This document shows, piece after piece, positions 16,526-36,088 of a stretch of 64,000 bases of DNA. Origin of the DNA: Hyphobacterium sp. CCMP332 (GTDB lineage Bacteria; Pseudomonadota; Alphaproteobacteria; Caulobacterales; Maricaulaceae); NCBI RefSeq assembly GCF_014323565.1, contig NZ_CP058669.1, forward strand, positions 2,011,501 through 2,075,500, read 5' to 3'. The notes under the pieces are model-generated. The model was given only the letters and a program-made list of their open reading frames with translations, had not been told where the DNA came from and searched no databases. The stretch's first letter is position 1, and each line of letters begins with the position of its first letter. A program made the position numbers and the translations under genes.

Positions 16526-19129
16526 TCAGAGCTCACAGCCCATTGTTTCGTTGGCTTGGCCGCCGATCGAAACGTCATCGATCCACAGGTCGAGACCATT
16601 CCGACCGGCAATAATCAAGGGCGCATCAATGGCTGCGAGATCGGCACCGGCCTCAACGAAACAATGAAGCGGCAGGCTTGCAGTCATCCAGCCCTTGCCT
16701 TCCGCCCAGCGGATGCCGGCCGTGACATCGAGGCCGCCTTCGCAGCTCTCGCCGCAACCCATGGCCAGGCTGACTGCACCGCTGCCGCTATCGGTAACCT
16801 GATAGGAAATGTGCACCAGCTGATCGCGGGAAAGAACGTCCATGCCGCCTTCAAGGCGCAAAATTGCGTCTCCCGACCAGATGATGCGGCGCGTATCATC
16901 CTGCACATCGCGCTCATCCAGCGTGACGCTGATCGCACCATCCGCGGTGGCGGCGTCGGGGCCGCTGACGGTAACTGTCTGTCCCTCGCTCACAAGTGCC
17001 AGTGTGAAGCCACCCGACGCGCGCCCGTTTTCCAGCAGGGTTAAGGCGTCCGGGCCCTCAATATCGGCAATACCGCTTTCCTCGTTCAGCACCCCGAGTG
17101 GTTCACCCGGCTCGGCGTAGCTGAGGCCATAACCGAAGGCGAAAAGCGGATCGTAATTCTCGTCCCACGGGTTCAGCACGGTCTGATCGGCGCGGCGAGG
17201 CCAGGAATATGAAAGCCGACCGGTGAAATCATGTCGCGGCGAACCATCGGCATTGCCCACAAGGACATCGGCAATGCCGGCTCCTTCCGAACCCGGCAGC
17301 CAAGCCGCCACAAAGGCATCGGAGGCGTTGAGTTCGCGATTCATCCACAGCGGGCGACCGGACATGAAAATGGCAACGGTCGGAATTCCGTCGGCCCGGA
17401 ATCGCCGCAGCAGTTCAAGTCCGTCCTCGTTGGCGAAATCCACAAACTCCTGGTCGCCAACGAATTCGGCGTAAGGCTCTTCACCGAAGACAACGACAGC
17501 GACATCCGGTGGGGTCGTGTAGCTGCCATCCTCGCTGAGCGTCACGGTGCCGCCGGCTTCGGAGAACGCCGCTTCGAAACCGTCAAAAATCGACTGGCCA
17601 CCGGGGAAGTCCTCATTGGTATGTCCGTCACCCTGCCAGTTGATGGTCCATCCACCCGCCTGCATCCGGATATTATCGGCACCATCGCCCGCCAGCAGTA
17701 TGTTGGTGGTCGGGTCGAGCGGGAGGACGCCGGAATCATTCCGCAGCAGCACAAGCGAACTGCGGACGGCCTCGCGCGCAACGGCGCGGTGTTCCTCGCT
17801 GCCGATCAAGTCGAAATTCCCGGCATGCGGGCGTTCCGACGGCGCAACGCCGTCGAACAGTCCGGCGCGCGCCTTGACGCGAAGGATACGCGTGACCGCC
17901 TCATCCAAACGCTCCATGGGTATGGTGCCATCTTGTACCTGGTCCAGCAGGTTTTCATACAACCCCCGCCAGCTGCCCGATGCCATATACATGTCGACAC
18001 CGGCGATCAGCGCCTGGGGACAGTTTTCATTCTCACACCCGGCAATCTGGCCGTGGCCTTCCCAGTCGCCAATGACAAATCCGTCAAATCCCAGCCGATC
18101 AACGAGCACATCCGTCAACATGGCGCCATTGCCATGCATCTTGATACCGTGCCACGAATTAAAGGACGCCATGACCGTTTGCACACCGGCCGTTATGGCC
18201 GGCGGATAACCCGCCGCATGTATATCGCGCATGTCAGCTTCACTGGCGCGGTTATCGCCCTGATCGATACCGCGGTCGGTGCCACCATCGCCAACCCAGT
18301 GCTTGGCCGTTGCCACGACATAACCTGCACCCAGAAAGTCTTCGGAACCGGCAGTGCCCTGCAATCCCTCGACCATGGGGCCGCTCAGGCGCGCGACAAT
18401 CTCCGGGTGTTCGGAATATCCTTCATAGGTCCGGCCCCAGGTGTCATTCTGTACGACCGCCAGCGTCGGAGCGAAGGTCCATTCCTGACCGGTCGCTCGC
18501 ACTTCCAACGCGGTGACGCGGCCGATCCGCCGGATCAGATCCGGATTGTTGGCCGCACCCAGACCGATATTATGCGGAAACAAGGTCGCCCCGACAATAT
18601 TGGAGTGGCCATGAACAGCATCCGTTCCCCAGATAATCGGAATACCGGCACCACCGTCGGATGTATCCGTCGACGCATTGTAATACGCGTCGGCCAGCGC
18701 CAGCCAGGCTTCGGGCGGCGCAAAGTTGTCGTCACCCGGGCCGGAATTGCCGCCGTTCAGAACGGACCCGAGATGGTATTGCGCTGCCAGCTCTGGTGTC
18801 ACTTCTGAAATGTCGGCCTGGATAACCTGGCCGACTTTCTCCTCGACGGTCATTCGGGACAGGATGTCGGCAACAAAGGCTTCGACCTGCGCGTCCCGCT
18901 CCACACCGGACTGCCCTTCCGGCCAGTTCGCAGGATCAATGACAACGCGGCCGCCAATATCGTTAGAGACGGTAATCGCCGAGTCCAAGGGCTGGGTTTG
19001 GTCTGACAACACTTCGGAATCCGCCGGCTCGGCATTCATTTCGGCCGCCGGCTGACAGCCCGCCAGCAAGAGTGCAGCAATGGATGTCGTCAGGAAGAAC
19101 TGGGGAAATCTGGTTTTTTCGGCTGTCAT
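16526..19129 (-). CDS. Lipoprotein GH3 beta-glucosidase/exo-glucanase
   Basis: The protein has 867 residues from the ATG at 19129, which has GGAGG upstream and leads directly into a lipoprotein signal (IAALLLAGC). The GH3 N-terminal barrel shows IIWGTDAVHGHSN and the nucleophile motif GFVIGDWEGHG (Asp). The second GH3 domain shows VAIFMSGRPLWMN. The last 200 residues form an extra beta-sandwich ending DLWIDDVSIGG, as in marine ExoP-type exo-1,3/1,4-beta-glucanases. It should release glucose from beta-gluco-oligosaccharides at the membrane or in the periplasm. It lies between TBDR 19388-22564 and the glucose symporter, completing the sequence uptake, cleavage, glucose import. Confidence 0.92.
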   Translation of the reverse strand: MTAEKTRFPQFFLTTSIAALLLAGCQPAAEMNAEPADSEVLSDQTQPLDSAITVSNDIGGRVVIDPANWPEGQSGVERDAQVEAFVADILSRMTVEEKVGQVIQADISEVTPELAAQYHLGSVLNGGNSGPGDDNFAPPEAWLALADAYYNASTDTSDGGAGIPIIWGTDAVHGHSNIVGATLFPHNIGLGAANNPDLIRRIGRVTALEVRATGQEWTFAPTLAVVQNDTWGRTYEGYSEHPEIVARLSGPMVEGLQGTAGSEDFLGAGYVVATAKHWVGDGGTDRGIDQGDNRASEADMRDIHAAGYPPAITAGVQTVMASFNSWHGIKMHGNGAMLTDVLVDRLGFDGFVIGDWEGHGQIAGCENENCPQALIAGVDMYMASGSWRGLYENLLDQVQDGTIPMERLDEAVTRILRVKARAGLFDGVAPSERPHAGNFDLIGSEEHRAVAREAVRSSLVLLRNDSGVLPLDPTTNILLAGDGADNIRMQAGGWTINWQGDGHTNEDFPGGQSIFDGFEAAFSEAGGTVTLSEDGSYTTPPDVAVVVFGEEPYAEFVGDQEFVDFANEDGLELLRRFRADGIPTVAIFMSGRPLWMNRELNASDAFVAAWLPGSEGAGIADVLVGNADGSPRHDFTGRLSYSWPRRADQTVLNPWDENYDPLFAFGYGLSYAEPGEPLGVLNEESGIADIEGPDALTLLENGRASGGFTLALVSEGQTVTVSGPDAATADGAISVTLDERDVQDDTRRIIWSGDAILRLEGGMDVLSRDQLVHISYQVTDSGSGAVSLAMGCGESCEGGLDVTAGIRWAEGKGWMTASLPLHCFVEAGADLAAIDAPLIIAGRNGLDLWIDDVSIGGQANETMGCEL

Positions 19130-19312
19130 TGAAGCCTCCACATTCGGCTTGCCTTCAGCAATTTGGAAAGGACGGAAAACGGCAGCATCACCTTGAATCC
19201 GACCACACCGGCCCGGTGAACCTGCCAGAATCGGGATCATTCAGCCGCGACCATAAACGGAACTTTCGGAGCCTCCGAAACCGGCTTCAAGATAAAAAGG
19301 CCCGGTCTTGAG

Positions 19313-19387: not shown

Positions 19388-22300
19388 CTAGAATGCGTAA
19401 CGCAGGCCGAATTCGAACCGGCGGTCATTTTCGAACACCGACCGGCCAAATCGCTGGCCCCGCGCATCTATCTGCTGATAGGCCACCGCCTGGGTATCCA
19501 GAATATTGGCCAACTGGGCCCGGACGGTTACACTATCAGTAATATCCCACCGGATAGACGCATCGAGGAAACCGATATCATCCTGAATGATCGGATTACC
19601 CGTAATGAAATCCCGATAGGAACTGATGTATTCAGAGCGCCAGTTATAGGCGATACGAGCCTCGATAGTATCGCTCTGATAGATACCGATCAGATTGTAG
19701 GAATAATCCGACAGCCCCAGAAGATCGGCCACATTCCAGCGATAAACCGTCAGGAAGCCCTCAACGCCATCACCATCCGCATCCGGCACCGGCGGCAGAG
19801 CCGTCGCCGATGACGACAGGATCGTCAGGTTCGCCTGGACACCCAGATTTCCGAGTTGACCCGGCCATTCGGTGAAGAATTGCTGGTAGGCAAACTCGAT
19901 ACCTTCGACGGTGCCATCATTCCGGTTGGTATTACCAAAATAGGTCACCGGAACCGTGTAACCATCCAGAGTAATGGTATCGACCACCTCTTCGCCATAG
20001 ACGATGATGTTGCTGAGATCCTTGTAGAAGGCGGATGCGGTAAACAATCCGTCCGTGCCAAAGTAGAATTCGACCGCAACGTCAAGGTTTGTTGCTTCGA
20101 TCGGCTCCAGGTTCGGATTGCCGCCGAATACATTGATCCCGCCCAGCACAATATCCTGAATCACCGGCGGCGTTGCCGTCGCGTCAACGACGAAGCCCAA
20201 CTCGGCCTGACGGCTTTGCGTCGAGTTCAGGTTGGAAATATTCGCCGGTGTGATCGCACGGCTGGCGCCGATACGGATCAGCCACTCGTCATTGAGGTCC
20301 CAACGCATATTGAAGGACGGCAAAAGGTAGCTGTACGAATTCGAAATCGAATTCGGCTGGTTTGCCTGATCGAGATAGGCCGCCGTTTCCGGAAGGAAGT
20401 CCCGCTCTTGCCTTGGGTTCGCCGGATCGTCAGGCGCGAACTCGACGAAGCCGAGAATACCACCGCCCGTGGTTTCCGAATTCACGTAACGCAGACCGAC
20501 ATTACCCGACACGGACTGACCGCTGGCCAGATCATGCGTGAAATTGGCCTGCGAGTAGAAGTTATAGGTCACTTCCCGAACGTTGCCATCAACGCCCCGG
20601 CCCGCATAGTCGATCGTGCCATTCTGACGAAGCGGCACCCAATCGCCGATCTGCAGATTGCCGTCGGCATTCGGACCGGAATTCATCAGCGGCTCAGCCG
20701 CAAGTGAATTCACGAAGGCATCGTAATCGCGCATCTGCGCGCGGCTCGGATACACGACCGACGTATTGTTGCCGAGGAAAACGCCACCGCCCTGGAAATC
20801 GCGGAAGTCAAAGATGTCATACGAGTTCTGGTCAGCACGGTTGGCATACGGCAGATAGCCATTGCCATCCCATGGCGGTGCAATGGCACCCCAGTTCAAC
20901 CCCGCACTGCGATTGTTTTGCTCGCGCTCGGAGAAGCGTGCACCAAAATCAACCGACTCAAACCAGCCATCTCCGCCCAACTCGTAGCGCGCATCCGCAC
21001 GTGTCGAGAAGAGATTGCCTGTATTGTCCTGGAATTCGTCAGCCGCATACAGCATGAAGGCATACCGAGGATCACCGAGGTCACCAAGGATGCCCGGATC
21101 CGCCCCGCGGAATGTACCGCCCCAAGTGGCCAGCTGAACCTGGTCCGACATGAAGAGTTCAATCTGCGGGTTTTCGATATCCGAGAAATTGTAGCGATAG
21201 TCAGCAAAGTGGTTGCCACCCGACCAAAGTCGCTGAAGCTGCGCCTCTGCTTCCGTGTAATGAGCATCAAGCTCGACAAACAGACGATCGCTGACGCGCC
21301 ATTGCAGATTGGCCGCAAAATCCTGCGTCATGGACGTTTCGGTTTGCGAAACGGCCAGCGACTGAAGCGGCGTCTGGAGATTGCCGGTCTGACCCAGCCA
21401 GTCGCGCAGATTGTTCGAGACAACGCCCGACTCCATCAGCCCGCCATTGACCGGGATCAGCTGTTCGCAGATTCCGATACCGCCATTGGCGGCTTCTCCG
21501 TTACCGTTACAGCGCGGGAGACCCGGCGATGAGAACGGAACAAAGCTGCGCGAACCGGGCCCGTCAAGAATGGTCCAGTTGGCCCAGGATTCTGCATCGG
21601 TGAAGAATTCGAGTGTGCGCTCGTCATTCGTGATCTCGTTTTCGACCCGAACAGCCGTGAACGAGAATTCCACATTCCCGCCCGGCGAACGCCACTGGCT
21701 GGCAAGATAGTAACTGTCACGCTCGCGATCGACATCGGCGTCGCGCGCCTGCCAGCCGCCCGGAAGCGCCATGGTGGTGCCCGGGACATCCGGATTCGCG
21801 ATAGCCATCAGCTGGCCATACTGGAAACCGTGAATGCTGGACCGGAGATTGGACGTCGAATACGAGGCCAGCAGACCGAACTCACCACTGCCCGTATCCC
21901 AAGTGTTGCCAAGAACAGCACTATATCCCGGGCTGAATACATCGGCAATATCGGTGTAAGTCTGCTCGACGGAGGCCACAGCAATCAGGCCATCGCGATC
22001 AAAAGGCAGCAGGGTGCGCAGGTTCACGAGACCGGAGATACCACCCTCGATCTGGCTGGCCGTCGCGTTCTTGTAAACCTCGACGGCGCCGATCAGCTCG
22101 GGCGGGATACTGGCCCATTCCAGAGCACGTCCGCCATTGGCACTGAATGAATCCCGGCCATTGAATTCTGAACGCACGTATTGAAGCCCGCGAATGATGT
22201 TGCCCGAACCTTCTGGAGACGGGAAGTCGCCGTCACTGCCACCAAGTTCGAACCGCTGGGTCACCACACCCGGAACCCGCGACAGCGCCTCGGCAACCGA

Positions 22301-22564
22301 AAGGTCTGGCAGTTCCGAGACATCGGATGAAGCGATGGAATCTACCAGAGTGTCCGAATTGCGCCGGATATTCCGCGCATTCAGGAGAGCCCCCCGGACG
22401 CCGCGGACGACAATAACGTCCTGCGCCTCTTCGGCTCCTTCATCTGTTGTATCCACATCCTGAGCCATCGCGGGAAACGCGCCGAAAGCCGTTACCAATG
22501 CGGTTGTTGCAAGAAGCGCGAATTTGGTTGGCTGCCAACGGTCAGCCGTCTTTGGATCACTCAC
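19388..22564 (-). CDS. TonB-dependent receptor, Caulobacter/Xanthomonas carbohydrate type
   Basis: The 1058-residue receptor starts with GTG preceded by AGGGGAGA. It has a signal peptide ending FPAMAQD, a TonB box in DVIVVRG and a plug with SVAEALSRVPGVVTQR, EGSGNIIRGLQYVRSEFNG and IEGGISGLVNLRT. The plug form is that of the large receptor family seen with polysaccharide loci in Caulobacter, Xanthomonas and Sphingomonas. The barrel ends in an aromatic residue (LRYAF). A GH3 enzyme and glucose operon downstream and halogenase-like genes divergent suggest uptake of beta-glucan oligosaccharides. A LacI-type operator (22660-22673) lies in its promoter region. Confidence 0.93.
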   Translation of the reverse strand: MSDPKTADRWQPTKFALLATTALVTAFGAFPAMAQDVDTTDEGAEEAQDVIVVRGVRGALLNARNIRRNSDTLVDSIASSDVSELPDLSVAEALSRVPGVVTQRFELGGSDGDFPSPEGSGNIIRGLQYVRSEFNGRDSFSANGGRALEWASIPPELIGAVEVYKNATASQIEGGISGLVNLRTLLPFDRDGLIAVASVEQTYTDIADVFSPGYSAVLGNTWDTGSGEFGLLASYSTSNLRSSIHGFQYGQLMAIANPDVPGTTMALPGGWQARDADVDRERDSYYLASQWRSPGGNVEFSFTAVRVENEITNDERTLEFFTDAESWANWTILDGPGSRSFVPFSSPGLPRCNGNGEAANGGIGICEQLIPVNGGLMESGVVSNNLRDWLGQTGNLQTPLQSLAVSQTETSMTQDFAANLQWRVSDRLFVELDAHYTEAEAQLQRLWSGGNHFADYRYNFSDIENPQIELFMSDQVQLATWGGTFRGADPGILGDLGDPRYAFMLYAADEFQDNTGNLFSTRADARYELGGDGWFESVDFGARFSEREQNNRSAGLNWGAIAPPWDGNGYLPYANRADQNSYDIFDFRDFQGGGVFLGNNTSVVYPSRAQMRDYDAFVNSLAAEPLMNSGPNADGNLQIGDWVPLRQNGTIDYAGRGVDGNVREVTYNFYSQANFTHDLASGQSVSGNVGLRYVNSETTGGGILGFVEFAPDDPANPRQERDFLPETAAYLDQANQPNSISNSYSYLLPSFNMRWDLNDEWLIRIGASRAITPANISNLNSTQSRQAELGFVVDATATPPVIQDIVLGGINVFGGNPNLEPIEATNLDVAVEFYFGTDGLFTASAFYKDLSNIIVYGEEVVDTITLDGYTVPVTYFGNTNRNDGTVEGIEFAYQQFFTEWPGQLGNLGVQANLTILSSSATALPPVPDADGDGVEGFLTVYRWNVADLLGLSDYSYNLIGIYQSDTIEARIAYNWRSEYISSYRDFITGNPIIQDDIGFLDASIRWDITDSVTVRAQLANILDTQAVAYQQIDARGQRFGRSVFENDRRFEFGLRYAF

Positions 22565-22742: not shown

Positions 22743-24272
22743 GTGACATCAATTTCCAAAGTTTGCATTCTCGGTGGCGGCACTGCCGGATGGATGAGCG
22801 CTGCAGCGTTATCTAATAAATTCAATAATCTGGACTTGGAAATAACGCTGATAGAATCCGATGAAATCGGAACGATCGGGGTAGGCGAGGCAACCTTGCC
22901 ACATATCCGATATTTCAATCAGACACTGGGCATTAACGAGCCCGAATTCATGAAATCGACCGAAGCCACGTTCAAACTCGGCATCCAGTTTTGCGACTGG
23001 GGTCGGCGTGGCGACCACTACATCCATCCATTCGGTGAATATGGACAACCAATTGATGAACTCGATTTTCATCAGTTCTGGTTGCGGCTGAATCAAAGCG
23101 GCCGCGCACCGCGCCTGAGTGATTATTCCTATCCGGTTCTGGCGGCAGAAAAAGGCCGCTTCCGGATCCCGGATGAAGACATAACCCGCATCGGTTCAAA
23201 TTTCGGATACGCGTACCAGTTTGACGCTAGCCTGTATGCGCGCTTTCTGAGAAACCATAGCGAGCTGAACGGTACAAAGCGGATTGAAGGGCGGGTTATC
23301 GATGTCGAGCTTGATGGCGAGACCGGCAACGTCAGATCCGTCACACTGGAATCGGGCGCGCGCATCGAGGCCGATCTCTTTGTCGACTGTTCCGGTTTTC
23401 GCGGGCTTCTGATCGAGCAGGCGCTTCAAACAGGTTATGATGACTGGAGCCAATGGCTGCCCTGCAACCGGGCCATCGCCGTTCCCTGCGAATCTCGCGG
23501 CGAGCTGCTGCCCTATACCCGGGCGACGGCGCGAACCGCCGGATGGCAATGGAGAATTCCACTGCAGCATCGCACCGGCAATGGGCATGTTTACTGGAAT
23601 GAATTCGTTTCGGACGATGAAGCCGCACACCAGCTGATGACGTCTCTGGAGGGCCCTGCCCTCGCCGAACCGAAGCAATTATTCTTCAAGACAGGCCGCC
23701 GCAATAAATTCTGGAACAGGAATGTGGTGGCCATTGGTCTGTCGGCAGGGTTTCTCGAGCCGCTTGAATCAACGTCCATTCATCTGATCCAGGAGGGTAT
23801 TACGGCTCTGGTGGAGTTGTTCCCGACAACGGAAATCAATCCGCTCGACATTGCCGAATACAACACGCACATGGCATTGAACTTCGAACGGGTCAGGGAT
23901 TTTCTTCTTTTGCATTACGTGGCGACCCAGCGCGATGACAGCGAAATGTGGCGCTTTTTCCGGTCCATGGAGCTGCCGCAGAGCCTTCAGGAAAAAATCG
24001 CAGCCTGGTCCTCCAGAGGCTATCTGCTCAAATATGAGTTCGGCGTTTTCCTTCCCCCTAGCTGGATTGCGGTCATGTTGGGACAGAACCTGCTCCCGGA
24101 AGGTTACGATCCGAGGGTCGACCGCTATGCTGATGGGGACCTGGTACGGGAGATGGAAAGGGTCCGCCTAGAAACCGAGGCGGCCGTCAGAAACACGCCC
24201 ACGCAAAGCGAGTTTCTGACCCGGTATGGCGCCACATCCGATTCAAGGCCGCTCAGCGCTTCGCTGACCTGA
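22743..24272 (+). CDS. Flavin-dependent tryptophan-halogenase family protein 1
   Basis: This 509-residue protein starts with GTG. The N-terminal FAD motif is CILGGGTAGW. The halogenase lysine is present in TFKLGIQF (Lys78, the position of Lys79 in RebH). The WxWxIP motif that shields the site from monooxygenase chemistry is at 268-273 (WQWRIP). GFLEPLESTSIHLI keeps the Glu used in halogenation. It should therefore be chemically competent with a flavin reductase, none of which is seen nearby. Homologues beside TBDR genes are widespread in Caulobacterales and Xanthomonadales; some halogenate free indole in vitro, but their role in sugar loci is unknown. It heads a tight four-gene run and shares the operator region with TBDR 2. 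Confidence 0.9.
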   Translation: MTSISKVCILGGGTAGWMSAAALSNKFNNLDLEITLIESDEIGTIGVGEATLPHIRYFNQTLGINEPEFMKSTEATFKLGIQFCDWGRRGDHYIHPFGEYGQPIDELDFHQFWLRLNQSGRAPRLSDYSYPVLAAEKGRFRIPDEDITRIGSNFGYAYQFDASLYARFLRNHSELNGTKRIEGRVIDVELDGETGNVRSVTLESGARIEADLFVDCSGFRGLLIEQALQTGYDDWSQWLPCNRAIAVPCESRGELLPYTRATARTAGWQWRIPLQHRTGNGHVYWNEFVSDDEAAHQLMTSLEGPALAEPKQLFFKTGRRNKFWNRNVVAIGLSAGFLEPLESTSIHLIQEGITALVELFPTTEINPLDIAEYNTHMALNFERVRDFLLLHYVATQRDDSEMWRFFRSMELPQSLQEKIAAWSSRGYLLKYEFGVFLPPSWIAVMLGQNLLPEGYDPRVDRYADGDLVREMERVRLETEAAVRNTPTQSEFLTRYGATSDSRPLSASLT

Positions 24273-24296: not shown

Positions 24297-25724
24297 ATGC
24301 GGTCTTTAACAAAAAACATTGCCGTATGCGGCGGAGGTCTGGCCGGTAACATGGTCGCGACACGGCTCGTCGCAGGACTGGGCGCGGACTGGAAAATCTT
24401 TCAGCTATGCGATTCAATGCCCCCGCAGCACGACATTGCCTACGGGAATACATCAGATCCGGACAGCTACAATTTCCTGCTCGATCTTGGACTCAACGAG
24501 CCGACGCTCTTTTTGAAAAGTGCAACGAGCTTTTCCTTCGGCACCCATTTCAGCAACTGGCTGAATAGAAGCTGGATGCAATGTCATCACACACCCTTTC
24601 AAACTCTGCGCGGCATACCTTTTCGCCATTTCGTCGCCCGCTCGAACACGTCGCTCGAACCGCTCCTGATATCTGCCCGGGCCGCGATTGCGGGTCGCTT
24701 CGCCCACCCGCCAAAGGACCCTGCCATCATCTTGTCGCGCGCCGAGTATGGCTACCAGTTCGATGTGCGCGAGTGGGCGGCGCTACTCGAACAGAAGGTT
24801 CTGGCAAGTCGCGTCATCAGAAAATCCTCACCGATCAGATCCGTCACAACCGATGGCGATACACTGACCGGTCTGAAGCTGGAAAATGGAGAAGATCTCG
24901 AAGTTGATCTAGTCATAGATGCCGCCGGGACGGGACGGGACGTCATAGGGGCCGCTGGCGGACGCTTCCGGTCGCACCGGACAGTAAGGATAAACGGCAG
25001 CATCACGCGCGAAGCCGAGACCGGCCCTCCGCTTCGGGACGTCTGCTCGCAGCTGAACGGTTGGACCAGCACGGCTCATTTGCAGAAGGCGCGGAGTGTC
25101 ATTCAGGTCGAAGCCGCTGATAGCGGCGGCGAACAGGCGGGCGATTGCATCGACATCGGGTTACTGGACAGGGCCTGGGTTGGAAATTGTATCGCCATCG
25201 GGCACGCGGCCAGCGTGATCGAGCCCCTGACGCCCGCTCCGGTCATGATGCTCAGGCGCGACATTGATCGCTTGCTGGAACTGATTCCTGTCTCAAGCGA
25301 TATGACCATCGAAAGGCGGGAATTCAATCGACGGTTTCATGAGGATTATGAACATATCGGGTTATTCCATTCTGCCCTGATGGATTGCGACGACAGGCCT
25401 GACACGCCCTATTGGCAGGCGGCGGCATCCGGGAATTCGGATGACAAGCTCAGGCGGAAGATTGACCAGTTCGAAAATCGCGGGAAGCTGGCGAGCTATG
25501 ATCTCGAGCCGTTTAACGATGAGGACTGGACCATCCTGCACCTGGGCATGGGGCGGCGCCCGCGAATATATGACCGCCAGGTCGATCGGGTGCCCAGAGC
25601 AGAAAGCGAAAGCGCATTGACCGAGGTCCGACAATCCATTCAGCAGCTCGTTTCGAAAATGCCGCCTCATGGCGCCTATATAGATCGTCTCAAGCAATTC
25701 CTCTCGAGGCAAGACAATGTCTAA
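24297..25724 (+). CDS. Degenerate halogenase-family flavoprotein (catalytic residues lost)
   Basis: The 475-residue protein aligns along its length with its three neighbours and keeps a dinucleotide motif (AVCGGGLAGNMV). The catalytic Lys is replaced by Ser (SFSFGTHF, Ser80). WxWxIP has become WTSTAH. The Glu of EPLESTS is gone (EPLTPAP). The reading frame is intact, with a good ribosome site (GAAGGAAA), and it overlaps the next gene by 8 nt, so it is maintained rather than decaying. It probably cannot halogenate. It may act as a different flavoenzyme, a partner subunit or a ligand-binding protein. Its spacing shows it is expressed with the active-looking paralogues. Confidence 0.82.
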   Translation: MRSLTKNIAVCGGGLAGNMVATRLVAGLGADWKIFQLCDSMPPQHDIAYGNTSDPDSYNFLLDLGLNEPTLFLKSATSFSFGTHFSNWLNRSWMQCHHTPFQTLRGIPFRHFVARSNTSLEPLLISARAAIAGRFAHPPKDPAIILSRAEYGYQFDVREWAALLEQKVLASRVIRKSSPIRSVTTDGDTLTGLKLENGEDLEVDLVIDAAGTGRDVIGAAGGRFRSHRTVRINGSITREAETGPPLRDVCSQLNGWTSTAHLQKARSVIQVEAADSGGEQAGDCIDIGLLDRAWVGNCIAIGHAASVIEPLTPAPVMMLRRDIDRLLELIPVSSDMTIERREFNRRFHEDYEHIGLFHSALMDCDDRPDTPYWQAAASGNSDDKLRRKIDQFENRGKLASYDLEPFNDEDWTILHLGMGRRPRIYDRQVDRVPRAESESALTEVRQSIQQLVSKMPPHGAYIDRLKQFLSRQDNV

Positions 25725-27240
25725 CTCCGCGGCCGTTCCCATCAGGCAGATCGTTATTGTTGGCGGAGGCGCTGCCGGGTGGATGACGGCTGCGGCCCTG
25801 TCCAGCCTGTTGCCGGCCGGAAGCGTCAGGATTTCTCTTATCGAGTCAGAGGCGATCGGAACAATTGGTGTCGGCGAGGCCACGATACCCGATATCATCA
25901 ACTTCAATGCGCTTTTGGGAATCTCCGAAACAGAGTTTCTCAAGGCCACCAACGGCACCTTCAAACTCGGCATCAAGTTTGTGAACTGGGGTCGCGTTGG
26001 TGAGGACTATTTCCACCCCTTCGGTCCGCATGGTGCGGACATGAATGCAATTGATTTCCATCAGTTCTGGCTGCGCCATCAAGTCACCAACCCCTCCAGC
26101 GATATTGAGGAATTCAGTCTGAACGCGGCGGCGGCCAAGGACGGCAGGTTCGCCCTGCCCGACCCGAATCCGCGTTCGGTCCTTTCCCGACTCCGGTATG
26201 CCTACCATTTCGACGCAACGGCCTATGCGGGCTTTCTTCGCAATTATGCCGAGCACCGCGGCGTGCGGCGGGTCGAGGGGATCGTGACGGAGGTCCGGCA
26301 GGATGCGGAGACCGGCGATATCTCAGAGATCGTTCTGGAAAACGGATCGACCATAGCCGGTGACCTGTTTTTCGACTGTACAGGGTTTCGGGGCCTGTTG
26401 ATCGACAAAACCCTTGATGTTCCTTTCACGGACTGGTCGCACTGGCTGCCTTGTGACACCGCACAGGCGGTTGCCTGCGATCGGGGCAGCGAAATCCTGC
26501 CCTACACCATCTCCACGGCAAAGTCGGCCGGTTGGCAATGGCGCATCCCGACGCAACACCGCACCGGAAACGGGCATATCTACTCCAGCAGCCTGTTGAG
26601 TGACGACGAGGCCATAGACAGTCTCCTGGAAGATCTGGACGGCCCGGCGATAGGTGAGCCGAGAAAGATCCGGTTCCGCACCGGGCATCGCGCACAACCC
26701 TGGAACAAGAACTGTGTGTCGATCGGATTGTCGGCGGGTTTTCTGGAGCCCCTGGAATCGACCTCGCTCTTCCTGATCCAGGAAGGCATCAGCAAATTCA
26801 TTGCCCTTTATCCGACCGCCGACATGCCAGACGTGGTCCGCGACGAATACAATCGGCAACTGGTCAAGAAATTCGAACAGGTTCGAGATTTCATCATCCT
26901 GCACTACAAGGCAACGGAGCGGGACGACAGCGAATTCTGGAATTACACGCGGACGATGGACATACCGGATTCTCTGGACAACCGGATTGAGCTCTTCAGG
27001 GAGGCGGGTCGGGTCTTCCGGTATGAGGACGAGTTGTTTGCCAAGCCGAACTGGGTGGCCGTGCTTCTGGGTCAGAACATTGTCCCCAGGTCGATCGACC
27101 CGATCGTGGGCGCAATCGATCCGGCAAGTATAGCGCATAGTCTGCAGTCGATGAGGTCCGCCATGAACAATGCCGTCACCCAGATGAAATCACACCGTAA
27201 CTTCCTTGAGAGTTATGCGTGGGCGACCGAAAAATTCTAG
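25717..27240 (+). CDS. Flavin-dependent tryptophan-halogenase family protein 2
   Basis: The 507-residue protein has VIVGGGAAGWM (FAD), TFKLGIKF with Lys83 at the halogenase lysine position, GWQWRIP and SAGFLEPLESTSLFL. All catalytic features are present. The ATG lies 8 nt inside the previous gene, with GAGGC upstream, so translation is coupled. It is clearly paralogous to the genes at 22743 and 27259 but divergent over the substrate region, suggesting different substrates. Cytoplasmic; no signal peptide. Confidence 0.9.
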   Translation: MSNSAAVPIRQIVIVGGGAAGWMTAAALSSLLPAGSVRISLIESEAIGTIGVGEATIPDIINFNALLGISETEFLKATNGTFKLGIKFVNWGRVGEDYFHPFGPHGADMNAIDFHQFWLRHQVTNPSSDIEEFSLNAAAAKDGRFALPDPNPRSVLSRLRYAYHFDATAYAGFLRNYAEHRGVRRVEGIVTEVRQDAETGDISEIVLENGSTIAGDLFFDCTGFRGLLIDKTLDVPFTDWSHWLPCDTAQAVACDRGSEILPYTISTAKSAGWQWRIPTQHRTGNGHIYSSSLLSDDEAIDSLLEDLDGPAIGEPRKIRFRTGHRAQPWNKNCVSIGLSAGFLEPLESTSLFLIQEGISKFIALYPTADMPDVVRDEYNRQLVKKFEQVRDFIILHYKATERDDSEFWNYTRTMDIPDSLDNRIELFREAGRVFRYEDELFAKPNWVAVLLGQNIVPRSIDPIVGAIDPASIAHSLQSMRSAMNNAVTQMKSHRNFLESYAWATEKF

Positions 27241-27258: not shown

Positions 27259-28767
27259 ATGTCAGATATGAACATCAGGGAAATTGCGATCGTTGGCGGA
27301 GGCACAGCGGGCTGGATGGCGGCGGCCGGCCTGTCGATTCTCCTGCGGGATCCGGGCATTCGTATCCGCCTGATTGAATCCGATGAAATCGGGACAGTCG
27401 GCGTCGGCGAAGCCACCATCCCGCACATCCGCTATTTCAATCAGCTGGTTGGCCTCGATGAAAAAGAATATCTGCGGCGGACGAATGCCACCTTCAAGCT
27501 GGGCATTGAATTCGTGAACTGGGGTCAGGTCGGAGATCGCTACTTCCACCCCTTCAGCCCGTATGGCGTGAGTATGGATGGCATCCATTTCCACCATTTC
27601 TGGCTTCGTCATATCCGCAAGCCGGGCGCGCCACCCATCGATGATTACAATCTTCAGGTGCTCGCCCACAAACTCAACAAATTCGCTCACCCGCAGCCGA
27701 ATGCCCGCTCCTCGCCGCTGGCATCCATAGAATACGCCTATCAATTCGATGCCAGCCTGTATGGAAAGTATATGCGCGACGTCGCGGAATCGCGCGGCGT
27801 TCAACGCATCGAAGGCAAGGTGACCGACGTCAGACAGCGATCGGAAGATGGGTTTATCGAATCCGTAAAGCTGGAATCGGGCGAAGAGATTGCCGCCGAC
27901 CTTTTTATTGATTGTACGGGATTCCGCGGCCTGTTGATCGAGCAGACGCTGAAGTCGGGTTATGATGACTGGTCAAACTACCTACCTGTTGACCGCGCCG
28001 TCGCACAGGGGTGCGAGCTGGCAGGCCCGCTCACACCCTACACGCGCGCGACAGCGCATGAATCCGGCTGGCAATGGCGCATTCCGCTACAGAACCGGCT
28101 GGGCAATGGTCATGTCTATTGCAGCGAGTATATCAGCGATGACGAGGCCTATGCGAAACTGAGCTCGGGGCTGGATGGCGCGCCCATCGCAGAGCCGCGT
28201 TTCCTGCGTTTCAAGACAGGAATCCGTAAAAAACCGTGGAACAAGAATGTCGTTTCCATGGGGCTGGCCTCGGGCTTTCTAGAACCGCTGGAATCAACCT
28301 CGATCCACCTGATTCAAACTGCAATTGCACGCCTGATGACAAATTTTCCGGACAAGCATTTCAGCGAGAAGGATATCGATTATTACAATGAGCGCACGCT
28401 TGCCGAATTCAAACAGGTGCGCGACTTCCTCATTCTACACTATTGCGCGACACAGCGGGACGATTCACCCTTCTGGAATTATGTCCGCACGATGAAGCTC
28501 CCCGATACGCTGCAACAGCGCATCGACATCTATATGGAGAATGGCCGGCTCTATCGGCACGACAATGAATTGTTCGGCGAGCATAGCTGGTTTGCGGTCT
28601 TTGAAGGGCAGAATCTCAGGCCCGAACGCTATCACCCGGTCATCAATCATTTGTCCGACCAGATGCTCGACCAGCGCATGGCGGAGATCCGTCGCGCCAT
28701 GCAGAAATGCCTCGAGCAATTCGAGGATCACGAGCAATATCTGAAAAAACAGGCTCAGGCCAACTAG
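27259..28767 (+). CDS. Flavin-dependent tryptophan-halogenase family protein 3
   Basis: The 502-residue protein has AIVGGGTAGWMAA, TFKLGIEF with Lys80, GWQWRIP and ASGFLEPLESTSIHL, so the halogenase chemistry residues are complete. GGGGCGA precedes the ATG, 18 nt after the previous stop. It is the last gene of the halogenase run and converges on the LacI gene at 28783 with a gap of only 15 nt. Confidence 0.9.
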   Translation: MSDMNIREIAIVGGGTAGWMAAAGLSILLRDPGIRIRLIESDEIGTVGVGEATIPHIRYFNQLVGLDEKEYLRRTNATFKLGIEFVNWGQVGDRYFHPFSPYGVSMDGIHFHHFWLRHIRKPGAPPIDDYNLQVLAHKLNKFAHPQPNARSSPLASIEYAYQFDASLYGKYMRDVAESRGVQRIEGKVTDVRQRSEDGFIESVKLESGEEIAADLFIDCTGFRGLLIEQTLKSGYDDWSNYLPVDRAVAQGCELAGPLTPYTRATAHESGWQWRIPLQNRLGNGHVYCSEYISDDEAYAKLSSGLDGAPIAEPRFLRFKTGIRKKPWNKNVVSMGLASGFLEPLESTSIHLIQTAIARLMTNFPDKHFSEKDIDYYNERTLAEFKQVRDFLILHYCATQRDDSPFWNYVRTMKLPDTLQQRIDIYMENGRLYRHDNELFGEHSWFAVFEGQNLRPERYHPVINHLSDQMLDQRMAEIRRAMQKCLEQFEDHEQYLKKQAQAN

Positions 28768-28782: not shown

Positions 28783-29829
28783 CTAATCCGTTTTCGCGGG
28801 TGGCGCAGTAGATTGGCGAACCACCAGCTTGTAGGGCAGTCTGAGTTTTTCAGGCGGCACCGAACCGCCAGAATTGGTGTCGTTCACGACGCGCTCGAGT
28901 ATTTCGATTGCGGAGCTGGCCATCTCCCGGATGGGCTGGCGGATCGTGGTCAGGGGCGGCCAGGTCGACGACGCCGCTGCGGCATCGTCAAAACCGACGA
29001 TGGAAACGTCTTCGGGCACCCGCAATCCTGCCTGATGAACCGCGGTTATCGCACCGATGGCCATGTCATCATTGCTGGCAAATATTGCGGTGGGTGAAGA
29101 CCCGGCATCGAGAAGCTTTCGCGTGAGACGCATCCCCGAAACATAGGTGAAATCTCCCTCGCTGATCACGCGCGCATCGAATGGGCGGCCCCGGGCTTCA
29201 AGCGCTTGCTTGTAGCCCGTCAAGCGAAGCTCACTGGCACGGTGATCGGGCGGCCCCTTGATAAATCCGATACGCTCATGACCCAGGTCCAGCAGATATT
29301 CGGTCATTTCGCGTGCCGCGTCGATTTCATTCATGCCAACGCTGGCACCTGCATAATTGTTCAATCTCGGGCTCACGCAGACATACGGCATCTTCAATCG
29401 TTCGAGCACATCAATGAGCTCCGGATCATCCGACAGCGGCGGTACAACGATCAGGGCCTGAATGCTCGTGTCCAGAAAACGCCGCTCGATGATCTCGAGG
29501 TCAACCATTTTCCGGTCAAGCATCGGTTCCTCGACAATGAGATTGTGCCCCAGTCGGCGACAGGCACTCAACGCGCCAAGCAGAAACTCGCTGAGATAGC
29601 CATAGGATGGGTTGCGGTAGATCAGGCCAATGAACAGGCCTGAACGTCCGGCCAGGCTGCGAGCCATGAGGTTTGGCCGGTAATTCAAAGATCGCATGGC
29701 CTGCTGAACGCGTTGGCGCGTTGCCTCTTTGACCGCACCGTTATTGTTCAGAACGCGTGACACCGTCATCGGCGAGACTGCCGCCATTTCCGCAACGTCC
29801 TGGATCGTGATCTTTTGTCTTTTGTTCAT
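28783..29829 (-). CDS. LacI/GalR-family transcriptional regulator 1
   Basis: The 348-residue regulator has an N-terminal LacI helix-turn-helix (ITIQDVAEMAAVSPMTVSRV), a hinge (YRPNLMARSLAGRSG) and a periplasmic-binding-like sugar domain ending PYKLVVRQST. It lies between the halogenase run and the beta-glucan genes. A symmetric element (29926-29941) in its upstream region resembles the sites at 22660 and 42196, so it probably represses itself, TBDR 2/halogenases and the exported protein at 41594. The ligand is likely a gluco-oligosaccharide or glucose; this is inferred from neighbours only. Confidence 0.92.
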   Translation of the reverse strand: MNKRQKITIQDVAEMAAVSPMTVSRVLNNNGAVKEATRQRVQQAMRSLNYRPNLMARSLAGRSGLFIGLIYRNPSYGYLSEFLLGALSACRRLGHNLIVEEPMLDRKMVDLEIIERRFLDTSIQALIVVPPLSDDPELIDVLERLKMPYVCVSPRLNNYAGASVGMNEIDAAREMTEYLLDLGHERIGFIKGPPDHRASELRLTGYKQALEARGRPFDARVISEGDFTYVSGMRLTRKLLDAGSSPTAIFASNDDMAIGAITAVHQAGLRVPEDVSIVGFDDAAAASSTWPPLTTIRQPIREMASSAIEILERVVNDTNSGGSVPPEKLRLPYKLVVRQSTAPPAKTD

Positions 29830-31090: not shown

Positions 31091-33304
31091 CTATCCGGAA
31101 ATCGAGAATACGGCGTGCAATCCACCTACGCTTGAGGCGGAAACCCAGACATCAAACGCACCCGGTTCGGCCGCGAACTGCCCGTTACGCCCGTAAAAGG
31201 CCAGATCATCTGTGTGCAGCCTGAACGACACCTTGCGGGTTTCTCCCGGCTCGAGATGGACCCGCTTGAAGCCCTTCAGCTCCCGCACCGGCCGCGTCAG
31301 GCTTCCGAAACGATCGCGGATATAAAGCTGAACGATCTCGGTCCCGGACCGGTCGCCGGAATTGGTGACTGAGGCCTCGACGACAACGCTGCCACCCATC
31401 GGGATGTCATGATGGTTGATCGACAGGTCACTGTAGTGGAATGTCGTGTAGCTGAGCCCGAAACCGAACGGGAAGAGCGGTTGATAGCCAGCGTCCAGAT
31501 GAAAGGCGGTCATGCCAAGCGATGTCTGTTCTGCGCCCGCCGGAATATCGTCAATATGGATCACCGTTTCGGGAGTGGCTGGTCGACCGGTCTGCTTGTG
31601 ACCGTAATAGATCGGCACCTGGCCGGACATGGTCGGGAAGCTCACCGGCAACTTGCCGGACGGCACGCATCGGCCGAACAGCGTGTCGGCGATCGCCGGC
31701 CCGCCCATGCTTCCCGGATGCCAGGCATAGATGAGCGCATCGAAGTGTTCGATGATATCGCCCATAGCCAACGGGCGACCGGCAAGGATGACACCAATGA
31801 GCGGCTTGCCCGTCGTGCGCAGCCGGCGCACAAGATCGGCCTGAACCCCGGGCAGGGTGATATCGGCGCGGCAATGGGCCTCGCCGGACAAGATCGACTC
31901 CTCACCAAGGAAGAGGACGACAGCATCCGCCGCACCGGCGGCGTTCAACGCATCATCAAACCCGCCTCTGTCACGGCTGCGGCTGGTTTCCAGCGCCCGC
32001 ACATAATCAACCGCGACATCGCCGTCGAGCATGGATTTCAGGGCAGAAAGCGGCGTGACGCTGCGCGCTGCATCTCCGTCAAAAATCCACGTCCCCAATT
32101 GCTCGACCGGCTCATCTGCAAGCGGCCCAATCACCGCCAGACGTTCAATATGAGCCGCATTCAGTGGCAATATGTTCTGCTCGTTACGCAACAGCACCAG
32201 GCTCTGCTCGGCTGCCTCGCGGACTTTCGTCAGAGCCGCCATACGGGGCGGTTCGTCGGGCGGCGAAGTCACATCGCGATCCATCAGTCCACCGAGAATT
32301 TTGGTGCGCAGCACATTTCCCGCCAGCTCGTCGAGCCGCGCGATGGACATCCGTCCATTGGCGATCAGCTCGGGCATATGCTGCTGGTAGGCCGCGCTGA
32401 CCATGTCGATATCGACACCCGCATCAGCAGAGAGATGGGTCGCCTCGACATCATTCTCGCAAAGGCCATGAACGCAGAGTTGATGGATGGCGTCCCAGTC
32501 GCTGACCACCGCCCCCTCAAAACCCCATTCCTCTCTGAGTACGGTCTTGAGCAGGAAATCGCTGGCCGTGGCGGGAATGCCGTCAATGTCGCTGAAGGAC
32601 GTCATGAATGTGCCCACGCCGGCGGCTCGAGCGGCCTGGAATGGAGGCAGATAGACGTTGCGCAACTCGTTCAGGGGCACGTTTGTCGTATTGTAATCGC
32701 GACCCGCTTCGGACGCACCATATCCGGCGAAATGCTTTGCACAGGCGATGAGCGTGTCGGCACCGTTATCCTCACTGATCTGGAAACCATGGATCATGGC
32801 CGTGCCCAGCTGGCCTGTCAGAAAGGGGTCCTCGCCAAAGCTCTCGGCAATACGGCCCCAGCGTGGATCCCGCGCAATGTCGATCATCGGGGCAAAGGTC
32901 CAGTTGATTCCGAAAGCGCTGGCTTCCTGCGCGGCGACGCGCGCGCAATCGCGAACAACAGCCGGATTGAAACTCGCCGCCTGACCCAGCGGGAGAGGCG
33001 CAATGGTATGATAGCCGTGGATGACATCGCGCCCGATCAGTAGCGGGATGCCATGCCGACTTTCATTCACGGCAATATATTGCAGTGCATTGATGGCGTC
33101 GCGATCCTCGACATTGAGGATGGAACCGATACGCCCGGCGCGGATGTCTGGTGCGAGGTCCTCGACGACATGCGGGCCCGTGCACTGAACCAGGTTCAGC
33201 TGACCGACCTTTTCTTCCAGCGACATCCCGTCCAGCAGGGCCCGGATGCGATCCTCCACATCCTGCCGGCTGACGATTGTACTTTCTTCCCGTGCACTGT
33301 TCAT
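31091..33304 (-). CDS. Cytoplasmic GH3 beta-glucosidase (BglX-like)
   Basis: The protein has 737 residues from ATG 33304 (GGGA upstream); an ATG 13 codons earlier is an alternative. The GH3 barrel shows LLIGRDVIHGYHT, FAPMIDIARDPRWGR, AKHFAGYG and the nucleophile segment AVVSDWDAIH. The second domain (GVILAGRPLAMG) and a C-terminal fibronectin-III-like domain (GTEIVQLYIRDRFGS) follow. No signal peptide is visible, unlike E. coli BglX, so it is predicted to be cytoplasmic. It is the third gene of the GH16-GPH-GH3 unit and would finish imported beta-1,3-gluco-oligosaccharides to glucose. Confidence 0.92.
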   Translation of the reverse strand: MNSAREESTIVSRQDVEDRIRALLDGMSLEEKVGQLNLVQCTGPHVVEDLAPDIRAGRIGSILNVEDRDAINALQYIAVNESRHGIPLLIGRDVIHGYHTIAPLPLGQAASFNPAVVRDCARVAAQEASAFGINWTFAPMIDIARDPRWGRIAESFGEDPFLTGQLGTAMIHGFQISEDNGADTLIACAKHFAGYGASEAGRDYNTTNVPLNELRNVYLPPFQAARAAGVGTFMTSFSDIDGIPATASDFLLKTVLREEWGFEGAVVSDWDAIHQLCVHGLCENDVEATHLSADAGVDIDMVSAAYQQHMPELIANGRMSIARLDELAGNVLRTKILGGLMDRDVTSPPDEPPRMAALTKVREAAEQSLVLLRNEQNILPLNAAHIERLAVIGPLADEPVEQLGTWIFDGDAARSVTPLSALKSMLDGDVAVDYVRALETSRSRDRGGFDDALNAAGAADAVVLFLGEESILSGEAHCRADITLPGVQADLVRRLRTTGKPLIGVILAGRPLAMGDIIEHFDALIYAWHPGSMGGPAIADTLFGRCVPSGKLPVSFPTMSGQVPIYYGHKQTGRPATPETVIHIDDIPAGAEQTSLGMTAFHLDAGYQPLFPFGFGLSYTTFHYSDLSINHHDIPMGGSVVVEASVTNSGDRSGTEIVQLYIRDRFGSLTRPVRELKGFKRVHLEPGETRKVSFRLHTDDLAFYGRNGQFAAEPGAFDVWVSASSVGGLHAVFSISG

Positions 33305-33357
33305 GACGGCATTCCCATGACTCTTGGCGAGAACTCGCCACACATCTGTTAGCTGAC

Positions 33358-34809
33358 TTATTCGGCCGGTGCGTTCACTTCCGCCTGACGTCGTTCTTCA
33401 AGCTGTTGCCTCACCGCCTGCGATTTTTCTTTCGAGACATTGATCGTCATGATCAATCCGAGGGCGAGGGTATAGAGCAGGATCGGAACGCCGATATCGT
33501 AGACCCGCATCAGGAAGAACGTTGCGTCGCTCTGTTCGCCGCCGAGGCTGGCGTCAAGCCCGGTCGTGGCCAAAAGCCAGGCACCGGCCATGATGGCCAC
33601 CGTCTGCCCCAGCTTGACGACCCACCAGTACATGGAGGCGAACATGCCCTCCCGGCGCTCACCGGTGCGCAACTCGTCCTGATCGACGATGTCGGCCATC
33701 ATCGCCGGCATCAGTGTAAACAGCGAACCAAGACCAAAAGCCATCAACGGCGCCGGCACCAGAATCCACCAGGGGTTTTCAGGGCTGTAGGCGAATGTTT
33801 TCAACGCGTATCCGACCATGGCCAGCGCGATGGCAATGATGAAAGTCTTCCGCTGACCGATCCGCTTCGCCAGGTAGGTCACGAAGGCGACAATAAAGAA
33901 AGTCGCCACAATCCCGGTCGTTCCGAGCAGGCCGGCCATCGCTGCGCCGGCCGCCGTGTCACCGGAATACACGTAATAGGCAAGCACCCAGTAACTGTAT
34001 GAGGAGATCAGGATAAACCCGTTGAAAACGAGGAAGGTCACCAGGCAGAGTTTCAGGAAGGGTACGAATGTCAGCGTCTGACCCATGCTTTTGAAGAATG
34101 CGCCGATTTCGGACAGGAAACCTGTCTTGCCGCCACGATGTGCTTTTTTTTCCTGCAGGGCGACAGTCGCCAGGCGCTCGCGCAGGAAGATGGCCGGAAT
34201 TATGCCCGTGATGATGACAAGAATGGCGACGCCGCCGGCGACCCAGCGTGCGCCATCAATTGCATCTGGAAATTGCTTGGCAATCGCGAGCATGAAGAAG
34301 GACGGTATGAAGCCGATCTGGCCAATGAAATTCTGGGTGCCCATCAGCAGCGTGCGCTGGTCATAATCGGGTGTCAGCTCGTAACCGAGTGCCACCCAGG
34401 GCGTTGCGAAAATCGTGTAGGCAAGAAAGAAGATCAGCGAACCGATCAGATAATACCACGCATAGAAGGTCGGGCTCTGACCATCCGGGAATTGCCATAG
34501 AAAGAAGAAACACACGGCGACAAGAATCGCGCCAACGAAAATAAACGGTCGGCGGCGACCCCATCTGGATTTAAAATTGTCGGACATATAGCCGATGATC
34601 GGGTCTGTAACCGCATCAAACAGGCGCGGGAGGCTTGTAATCAAACCGAGCATGACAAGGCTGACGCCCAGATTTTCGTTCAGCAACACCACCATCGCCA
34701 CGATTCCGTTGGCCAGCAGATTATTGGCGAAGGCGCCCGAGCCGTATGCCAGCCTGTGGAGAAAGGAAATACGATCTTCCGGTCGTGTCTCGGTTACAGC
34801 TTCGCTCAT
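33358..34809 (-). CDS. GPH-family (MelB-like) sugar:cation symporter
   Basis: The 483-residue protein has 12 predicted membrane segments. The N-terminal GSGAFANNLLANGIV, DAVTDPIIGYMSD with the Asp residues of the cation site, and RWGRRRPFI after helix 2 are GPH/MelB hallmarks. The family imports glycosides with Na+ or H+. Its place between an exported GH16 and a cytoplasmic GH3 makes short beta-glucan oligosaccharides the likely cargo. Confidence 0.9.
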   Translation of the reverse strand: MSEAVTETRPEDRISFLHRLAYGSGAFANNLLANGIVAMVVLLNENLGVSLVMLGLITSLPRLFDAVTDPIIGYMSDNFKSRWGRRRPFIFVGAILVAVCFFFLWQFPDGQSPTFYAWYYLIGSLIFFLAYTIFATPWVALGYELTPDYDQRTLLMGTQNFIGQIGFIPSFFMLAIAKQFPDAIDGARWVAGGVAILVIITGIIPAIFLRERLATVALQEKKAHRGGKTGFLSEIGAFFKSMGQTLTFVPFLKLCLVTFLVFNGFILISSYSYWVLAYYVYSGDTAAGAAMAGLLGTTGIVATFFIVAFVTYLAKRIGQRKTFIIAIALAMVGYALKTFAYSPENPWWILVPAPLMAFGLGSLFTLMPAMMADIVDQDELRTGERREGMFASMYWWVVKLGQTVAIMAGAWLLATTGLDASLGGEQSDATFFLMRVYDIGVPILLYTLALGLIMTINVSKEKSQAVRQQLEERRQAEVNAPAE

Positions 34810-34846: not shown

Positions 34847-35830
34847 TCAACTGGCGCAGGAGCGCGCCGTCTCGGTATCTTCGGGACAGTCATAGACCCG
34901 CACCCAATCGATAAGAAACTGGCGCGGATAGCCTTCATAGTCGACACCGCCAGCGGTATGGCTTTCGGCGAGGTGCCCCCCGATCGCCAGATTCAGGATA
35001 AGATGGAAACGCTGATCAAAGGGTGCGTTGGGGTTGCCTTCAGCAAGAGGGGAGTCGGTGTTCCAGTTCTCCGGCGTCAGATAGCCATAGCTCTCGCCAT
35101 CCAGAAACCATTCGACCCGGCCCTCGGTCCACTCGATCGCGAACACATGGAAAACCTGTTCGCCATCAGGACCGGTCGGTAATGTCGTACGACGGTTTTC
35201 ATAGCGGTTCTGCGGCCAGGCTCCGCCAAAGTGCAGCGTTCCGAACATGCGGTTCTCGACTGCACCGTCACAGTCCTCGCACTCAGCACCCAGATTGACG
35301 GCCTCGAGTATGTCAATCTCGCCCGATAACGCCCAGCCACCATAAACGTCATCCGTCGGCAGCATCCAGATCGCCGGCCAGGTTCCCTGACCTTCCGGCA
35401 GAAGAGCCCGGACTTCAATCCGGCCGTAACGCCAGTCGCCCTTGCCGCTTGTGTTCAGGCGAGCGGACGAAAAGGGCTGGGATGTCGTTTCGACGCGCTG
35501 CTCGGGCGTGACCTCGTCCATCAGGCGCGCGGGCCAGGCCGGCCCCGTCGTTTCTTCCAGATGGGCCTCGATGACGAGACAGCCTTCGTCGAGCCGGGCG
35601 TTGGTCTCCGACGCCGTGTAGCATTGCCGCTCTTCATTGCCGCCACCCCAGCAATCGACTTCACGGGTCCAGCGGTCTGTATCGATCTGCTCATCTTCGA
35701 ATTCGTCGGACCAGACAAGCCGCCAGCCATTGTCGGACTCGCTGATGCCAGCCGATCCGTCGCAATCAGCCCAAACCATCGAGGATGAAACCAATCCTGC
35801 AGCAATTGCCAATGCCAGACGTCGCATCAT
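34847..35830 (-). CDS. Exported GH16 endo-beta-1,3-glucanase (laminarinase-like)
   Basis: The protein has 327 residues from ATG 35830, chosen because AGGGG precedes it and a signal peptide (ending MVWADC) follows. The open frame extends far upstream but without signal or ribosome site. The GH16 catalytic motif is GEIDILEAVN (ExDxxE). WMLPTDDVYGG and HFGGAWPQNR are as in bacterial laminarinases. It would cut beta-1,3-glucan in the periplasm or outside. It leads the GH16-GPH symporter-GH3 unit. A 17-bp operator and a TTGACA promoter element lie in the 361-bp leader. Confidence 0.93.
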   Translation of the reverse strand: MMRRLALAIAAGLVSSSMVWADCDGSAGISESDNGWRLVWSDEFEDEQIDTDRWTREVDCWGGGNEERQCYTASETNARLDEGCLVIEAHLEETTGPAWPARLMDEVTPEQRVETTSQPFSSARLNTSGKGDWRYGRIEVRALLPEGQGTWPAIWMLPTDDVYGGWALSGEIDILEAVNLGAECEDCDGAVENRMFGTLHFGGAWPQNRYENRRTTLPTGPDGEQVFHVFAIEWTEGRVEWFLDGESYGYLTPENWNTDSPLAEGNPNAPFDQRFHLILNLAIGGHLAESHTAGGVDYEGYPRQFLIDWVRVYDCPEDTETARSCAS

Positions 35831-36037
35831 GAATGTCCCCTGTTGGATTCGCGCGCATTCTCGCCTGGCACGCAAAGCGCCCATGACGGAGAGAAACACG
35901 GCCTGTTGTTTTCCGGGAAATAGAACATCCGCGCTGCCGACAAAATTCGTGCAGCCAAGTTCTCGCGATGCCAACCTAGGTTTGGCAATGCCTGTTCTCC
36001 CCAAAATGTTGCCCGTTTTCGGTGCAGATTTCTCCCA

Positions 36038-36066
36038 GTAATCAGGCTCGGGAACCCGATTGTCAA
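36038..36066 (-). promoter_or_regulatory. Candidate promoter of the GH16-GPH-GH3 unit
   Basis: On the minus strand a perfect TTGACA (36066-36061) is followed after 17 bp by GATTAC (36043-36038). The operator 36072-36088 lies 5 bp upstream of the TTGACA. Confidence 0.4.
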
Positions 36067-36071
36067 TAAAA

Positions 36072-36088
36072 ATGTCCAACCTTGTCAT
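36072..36088. promoter_or_regulatory. 17-bp operator ATGTCCAACCTTGTCAT
   Basis: It differs at one base from the reverse complement of the site at 41477-41493 (ATGTCCAACGTTGTCAT). Two long, nearly identical, partly symmetric elements before two glucanase transcription units point to one shared regulator, most likely LacI 2 (38483-39505). Confidence 0.6.

Follow-up and report, generated by a model that had tools for sequence, protein, structure and literature searches.

We identified four consecutive genes of the family PF04820, all on the forward strand (A, P, B, and C), in the window, by which we mean the whole stretch of 64,000 nucleotides of the Hyphobacterium sp. CCMP332 chromosome analysed here. 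The second gene, P, is degenerate. We consider it probable (at roughly 0.58) that P is a pseudoenzyme with a halogenase fold, maintained by selection, which would act as a non-catalytic partner of its intact neighbours, most likely A. The cassette consists of the following features:

22743-24272, + strand: slot 1 (A), a halogenase paralogue with all motifs, 24 nt 5′ of P (PF04820, 625 bits; top PDB match BrvH, 497 bits)
24297-25724, + strand: slot 2 (P), a degenerate halogenase-family protein of 475 aa (PF04820, 180 bits; K80 to S, WxWxIP lost, EPLESTS changed to EPLTPAP; predicted halogenase fold)
25717-25724, + strand: overlap of 8 nt between the stop of P and the start of B (read from the sequence)
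25717-27240, + strand: slot 3 (B), a halogenase paralogue with all motifs, its start overlapping the end of P by 8 nt (PF04820, 602 bits; top PDB match 9luq)
27259-28767, + strand: slot 4 (C), a halogenase paralogue with all motifs (PF04820, 627 bits; top PDB match 9luq, 539 bits)

P starts with an ATG closely preceded by an AAGGAAA stretch, runs for 475 codons without a stop, and ends 8 nt inside the gene starting at ATG 25717, so that the open frame with translation signals described in the first-pass annotation of this DNA stands. It belongs to PF04820 (E = 7e-53; gathering cut-off 21 bits), with 180.4 bits vs 602-627 bits for its three neighbours. Residue 80 of P is a serine in SFSFG, where the paralogues have TFKLG; P thus lacks the catalytic lysine of a functional flavin-dependent halogenase (K79 in PrnA). 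The MAFFT alignment places GWTSTAH where GWxWxIP is expected, EPLTPAP in place of EPLESTS (which holds the catalytic glutamate and the halide site, the EST loop, of halogenases), and YGNTSDP in place of VGEATxP; P therefore also lacks WxWxIP and the Glu and Ser/Thr of EPLESTS. Since the established halogenase mechanism needs residues that P has lost, halogenation by P cannot be expected from its sequence. Pfam found no domain in P beyond the halogenase family, further matches being weak and below cut-off (NAD_binding_9 in Pfam and a hydroxylase model in NCBIfam), and a search against PHROGs gave a halogenase family only. In the window paralogues and their relatives from the same loci as P, the lysine, described as crucial to the halogenase mechanism (PMC7336383), is kept in 29/29 rows of A, 29/29 of B, and 27/27 of C, as is WxWxIP (29/29, 29/29, and 27/27); from these motifs A, B, and C are inferred to be active enzymes.

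A family search of 137 genomes recovered P itself and orthologues in 30 further genomes, one of them partial (G018); other family matches at E <= 1e-20 were ordinary or differently degenerate halogenase-family genes, with about 24-33% identity. A profile of the P orthologues scored full-length orthologues above 480 bits, the partial gene at 314, and all others at 301 or less. Searches with this profile added an orthologue in ten more genomes of the order, from three other families, and in one of 298 sphingomonads, giving orthologues in 42 genomes in all. A plasmid search gave no P orthologue, and among the matches listed there were only relatives at 22-28% identity. The lysine column of the 42 orthologues holds serine (37), alanine (3), threonine (1), or cysteine (1), and never lysine; WxWxIP is absent from all 42. 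The losses first noted for 24297-25724 (lysine to serine at position 80, WxWxIP, and the glutamate of EPLESTS) are therefore in the sequence and, being shared by the 42 orthologues, not due to chance, and the finding that would have pointed to decay, relatives that keep the lysine and WxWxIP, occurs in 0/42. The orthologues instead have a signature of their own: FSxG, EPLTPAP, YGxxTxP, FAHPP, and EDWTILHxGMGR, and also EYGYQF.

The gene order A-P-B(-C) is found at every locus with a P orthologue where the contig permits. Of 41 orthologous loci, 21 have the overlap with the next gene, also reported in the first-pass annotation, at exactly 8 nt, and 37 have it at some length (two of these, L063 and L067, have uncertain starts and were counted as odd-length overlaps), which suggests translational coupling of P and B. 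The A-P junction overlaps by 1-4 nt in 10/41 loci, and the B-C junction in 3/33, one of them an artefact. None of seven other genomes of the window's genus (G024-G030) has a slot-2 orthologue, and the nearest one is in another genus (G071); the presence of the cassette is thus patchy.

We surveyed 110 loci from Alpha- and Gammaproteobacteria: the window, 30 orthologue loci, and 79 further loci (L106-L184). The orthologue loci were picked for holding P, and 68 of the others (L117-L184) were taken from matches to the P model and PF04820, mostly at places with multiple matches. Across these loci the degenerate member is second in all 73 same-strand runs of three or more family genes (53 A-D-A-A, 18 A-D-A, and 2 A-D-A cut at the end, where A is an intact and D a degenerate gene). 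There are eight further A-D pairs, so that the degenerate gene lies directly downstream of an intact one in 81/81 cases. Runs without a degenerate gene comprise 14 A-A pairs and 2 pairs in which an intact gene lies next to one that scores low but is motif-complete; among genes standing alone, 25 are intact and 2 score low. One further fragment is cut by the end of its stretch. Locus L116 stops within P. Two less biased draws, both confirmed at the sequence level, agree: slot 2 is degenerate in 7/7 same-strand runs of three or more among 41 order-level genomes (one of the seven, G148 or L143, being a form of 266 aa) and in 4/4 runs among 29 sphingomonads. The same layout is found in cassettes non-orthologous to that of the window, with quite different substitutions: across slot-2 groups the lysine column has serine, arginine, alanine, cysteine, or a retained lysine, and EPLESTS is replaced by EPLTPAP, EPLNGDD, EPLMGSP, EPLGFLN, and others. 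Beyond what the first-pass annotation had claimed, sequence comparison thus indicates that two classes retain P as a subfamily, and that it always comes immediately after the first halogenase gene.

Slot 2 varies considerably in the extent of its degeneration. The least degenerate examples (L134:7704-9179 and L135:6589-8064, both reverse strand) keep W-x-W-x-I/V-P and have lost the Glu/Ser/Thr motif; the one in L134 also keeps the lysine. At the other extreme are L143:6992-7792 (reverse strand; 41 bits against the slot-2 profile) and L144:1583-2401 (forward strand; 29 bits), where slot-2 ORFs of 266 or 272 aa, flanked by intact halogenase genes and counted among the 81, represent an extreme shrinking of the degenerate subunit. 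In L128, L129, L131, and L167 the cassette is split into an A-degenerate unit and a convergent intact pair, and the degenerate gene stays with A. In Sphingomonas parapaucimobilis YK209 (L187:8476-10220) the gene following slot 2 is annotated as two short pieces, and slot 2 is open; Catenovulum adriaticum (L188:6989-9251) has a lone halogenase gene, flanked by a TonB receptor gene and a SapC-family gene. The slot-2 gene of Niveispirillum cyanobacteriorum TH16 (C0V82_RS25825, L185:8494-9927) has GFSLG, GWTRRIP, and DPVGGVA at the key motifs; annotators should be warned, since this protein is named “tryptophan 7-halogenase” and its catalytic residues are gone.

An AlphaFold2 model of P (pLDDT 93.0, pTM 0.92) was compared to solved structures, and the best matches were BrvH (6frl), Xcc4156 (6y1w), and the Pseudoalteromonas enzyme 9luq, all open-site flavin-dependent halogenases (Z 40.5-40.7, 453-456 residues aligned, 25% identity; for BrvH, Foldseek E = 8.9e-39 and VIA-align Z = 40.7). 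According to this model, the halogenase fold is retained in P. A, B, and C are close relatives of the same three enzymes (453-539 bits), whereas P differs from them in lacking the lysine, WxWxIP, the EST halide/Glu motif, and the VGEAT loop. P similarly shares the Pfam family PF04820 and the overall fold with the tryptophan halogenases PrnA, RebH, PyrH, and Thal, but has none of their catalytic signature residues. A set of 30 intact paralogues has 88 invariant columns, of which 35 diverse slot-2 proteins have lost 30 (<25% retention), including K78, E342, S343, W270, E49, and H95 (A numbering); those kept include glycines such as G332, and W324, N327, P361, and N374.

On the FAD side of these 35 proteins, the retention is 0.57 for the third glycine of the dinucleotide motif, 0.37 for the glycine and 0.11 for the glutamate of GEAT, and 0.31 for E38. 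The window P keeps GxGxxG (as GGGLAG) and has its GEAT loop replaced; some slot-2 proteins are without GxGxxG outright. Judged by these residues, the FAD side of slot-2 proteins is eroded, not erased. In the orthologue group of the window the dinucleotide motif never varies at G12 or G14, so that FAD may still bind P and other flavin chemistry would be possible; D208 is near-invariant in this group. P could then be a flavoprotein monooxygenase or oxidase of new chemistry, still using FAD after the loss of halide handling. The intact predicted fold, the strong motifs of its own (FAHPP and EYGYQF), and the weak NAD_binding_9 and hydroxylase matches would allow this, but the FAD-side residues are not kept across the diverse slot-2 proteins, and the lysine has no single replacement among the types, making this reading unlikely.

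The cassette adjoins a divergent TonB-dependent receptor gene, and genes for sugar uptake and breakdown lie on both sides:

16526-19240, - strand: GH3 glycosidase, same locus (Pfam)
19388-22564, - strand: divergent TonB-dependent receptor adjoining the cassette (TIGR01782, 521 bits)
28783-29829, - strand: LacI-family regulator (Pfam LacI and Peripla_BP_3)
31091-33343, - strand: second GH3 glycosidase (Pfam)
33358-34809, - strand: MFS sugar transporter (Pfam)
34847-36250, - strand: GH16 glycosidase (Pfam)

Positions 9721-37202 of the window hold genes for a glucokinase, an Edd-type dehydratase, G6PD, an SSF (sodium:solute) symporter, an MFS transporter, and an aldo/keto reductase, together with the two GH3 genes, GH16, the TonB receptor, the four halogenase-family genes, LacI, and a TauE-family protein; from its gene content this region is an apparent beta-glucan utilisation locus. 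A similar TonB receptor is found in 72 of the 81 loci with a degenerate gene, and several of the nine without it are on short contigs. We found no explanation for halogenase genes in glycan-uptake loci in the open-access papers searched. Such a setting, and a fold predicted to retain its cleft, would also suit a substrate-binding or sensing protein, in which P binds a substrate (aromatic or linked to a glycan) or a product and either passes it on or acts in signalling, without forming a stable complex; however, Pfam finds no further domain in P, and co-assembly agrees better with the fixed slot and with the overlap with B, so we regard this as a rather unlikely role.

We built a tree under a site-mixture model from 43 rows and 11 loci. 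The P rows lie on one side of a branch with support 100/100, and A and C have 99/95 and 86/97, respectively; the best tree does not recover B as one clade, and a forced B clade is not rejected (p-AU 0.114). Wider trees, made quickly, include sphingomonad and gammaproteobacterial cassettes: in one, P has support of 100 and A of 90; a second again puts P on a side of its own (100) and places one gammaproteobacterial A outside its group. Where gammaproteobacterial cassettes have three genes, the last of them clusters with C in the first of these quick trees; in the second, several sub-clades recur in parallel across A, P, B, and C. Because the trees set P (100/100), A, and C apart, the A-P-B-C cassette looks ancient and inherited together. 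A single origin of the degenerate slot-2 genes is favoured by these trees, not proven, since P has long branches throughout and the tool warned that such branches meet. The degenerate genes would otherwise have arisen several times from intact neighbours, their single group being due to long-branch attraction; the length of all P rows and the different substitutions among groups fit this, but even the least degenerate P (L132, L134, and L135) are separated from every A, B, and C at 100/100 under the site-mixture model, and the mirrored sub-clades also speak against it, leaving repeated origin improbable. It concerns the origin of these genes, not their function, and can be combined with a role of P as a pseudoenzyme partner.

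Selection on P was evident in all eight pairs compared, with far more changes at third codon positions than at first and second positions. NG86 dN/dS was about 0.08-0.21 for P (computable in six of the eight pairs) and 0.02-0.13 for A, B, and C, values that are rough because dS is saturated. Averaged over 30 loci, protein distances for P come to about 2.5 times those for A, B, or C, and the distances of P correlate with those of the neighbours (r 0.66-0.76). The P orthologue rows of the family search contain no internal stops, and the hallmarks of a decaying pseudogene (frameshifts, stops, or relaxed selection in relatives) are not those of P. P is under constraint, less tight than that on A, B, and C. 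The comparison across relatives that had been suggested for P thus gives low dN/dS (about 0.08-0.21, with dS saturated) and an excess of third-position changes, and the earlier proposal of a changed function is well supported, with P kept by selection: across the orthologues the frame stays open, the order of the genes and the overlap persist, and purifying selection acts. The regulatory or structural partner proposed there would be the most probable form of that function. A reading of P as a decaying passenger of the operon, which its faster evolution and the shortened slot-2 ORFs in L143 and L144 might suggest, is hardly credible given 42 orthologues with a common signature under purifying selection and a slot kept in two classes as one tree grouping. 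For the orthologue group, we rejected decay on its shared losses and signature and on purifying selection.

A role as a non-catalytic partner is suggested for P by the conserved slot, the retained fold, and the preserved operon layout. P has lost the residues that make and deliver hypohalous acid, and its predicted fold is kept under selection; its gene comes second in an apparently ancient cassette of four, which is linked to the TonB-dependent uptake of glycans. It would be made in step with A, B, and C, and may pair with them, most likely with A, through the usual dimer face of the family; in such a complex its effect could be to make the intact halogenase more stable, to shape the open site for the substrate of that enzyme, or to regulate the enzyme. 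Pseudoenzyme subunits in general are dead paralogues that serve a live one, and P resembles them in that its catalytic residues are lost while fold, operon layout, and selection are kept; its own partner role is what we infer. The open-access papers searched contained no description of inactive members of the halogenase family in cassettes of this kind. The family dimer offers a pairing face for P, since BrvH is described as eluting as a dimer (PMC5945002) and related enzymes as forming the same dimer in crystals (PMC5945002, PMC7336383); the account of brvH also mentions a second halogenase gene upstream of it (PMC5945002). Because P is always behind A, even in split cassettes, A is the likeliest first partner, and not only the proteins encoded at 25717 and 27259. 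Rate correlation gave no clear winner as the partner of P: the excess correlation is weak, and highest for C, not A (partial r 0.22 for A, 0.14 for B, and 0.43 for C). The roughly 2.5-fold faster evolution of P counts against the partner reading, as an obligate partner need not evolve faster than its neighbours. Furthermore, one role for all slot-2 proteins is not certain, because they range from nearly complete (L134 and L135) to 266-272 aa.

A dead paralogue in the same slot across two classes implies that the cassette works as a unit, and slot 2 gives a concrete handle on halogenase assays, namely to add the slot-2 protein. More tentatively, and at present doubtful, the TonB-linked cassettes of Alpha- and Gammaproteobacteria might encode a hetero-oligomeric halogenase of which the dead slot-2 protein is a required subunit. 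The natural substrates of halogenases of the BrvH/Xcc4156 class are stated to be unknown (PMC7336383). If slot 2 is indeed a required subunit, BrvH and Xcc4156, which were studied singly, would have lacked a partner, which would help to explain why natural substrates were never found.
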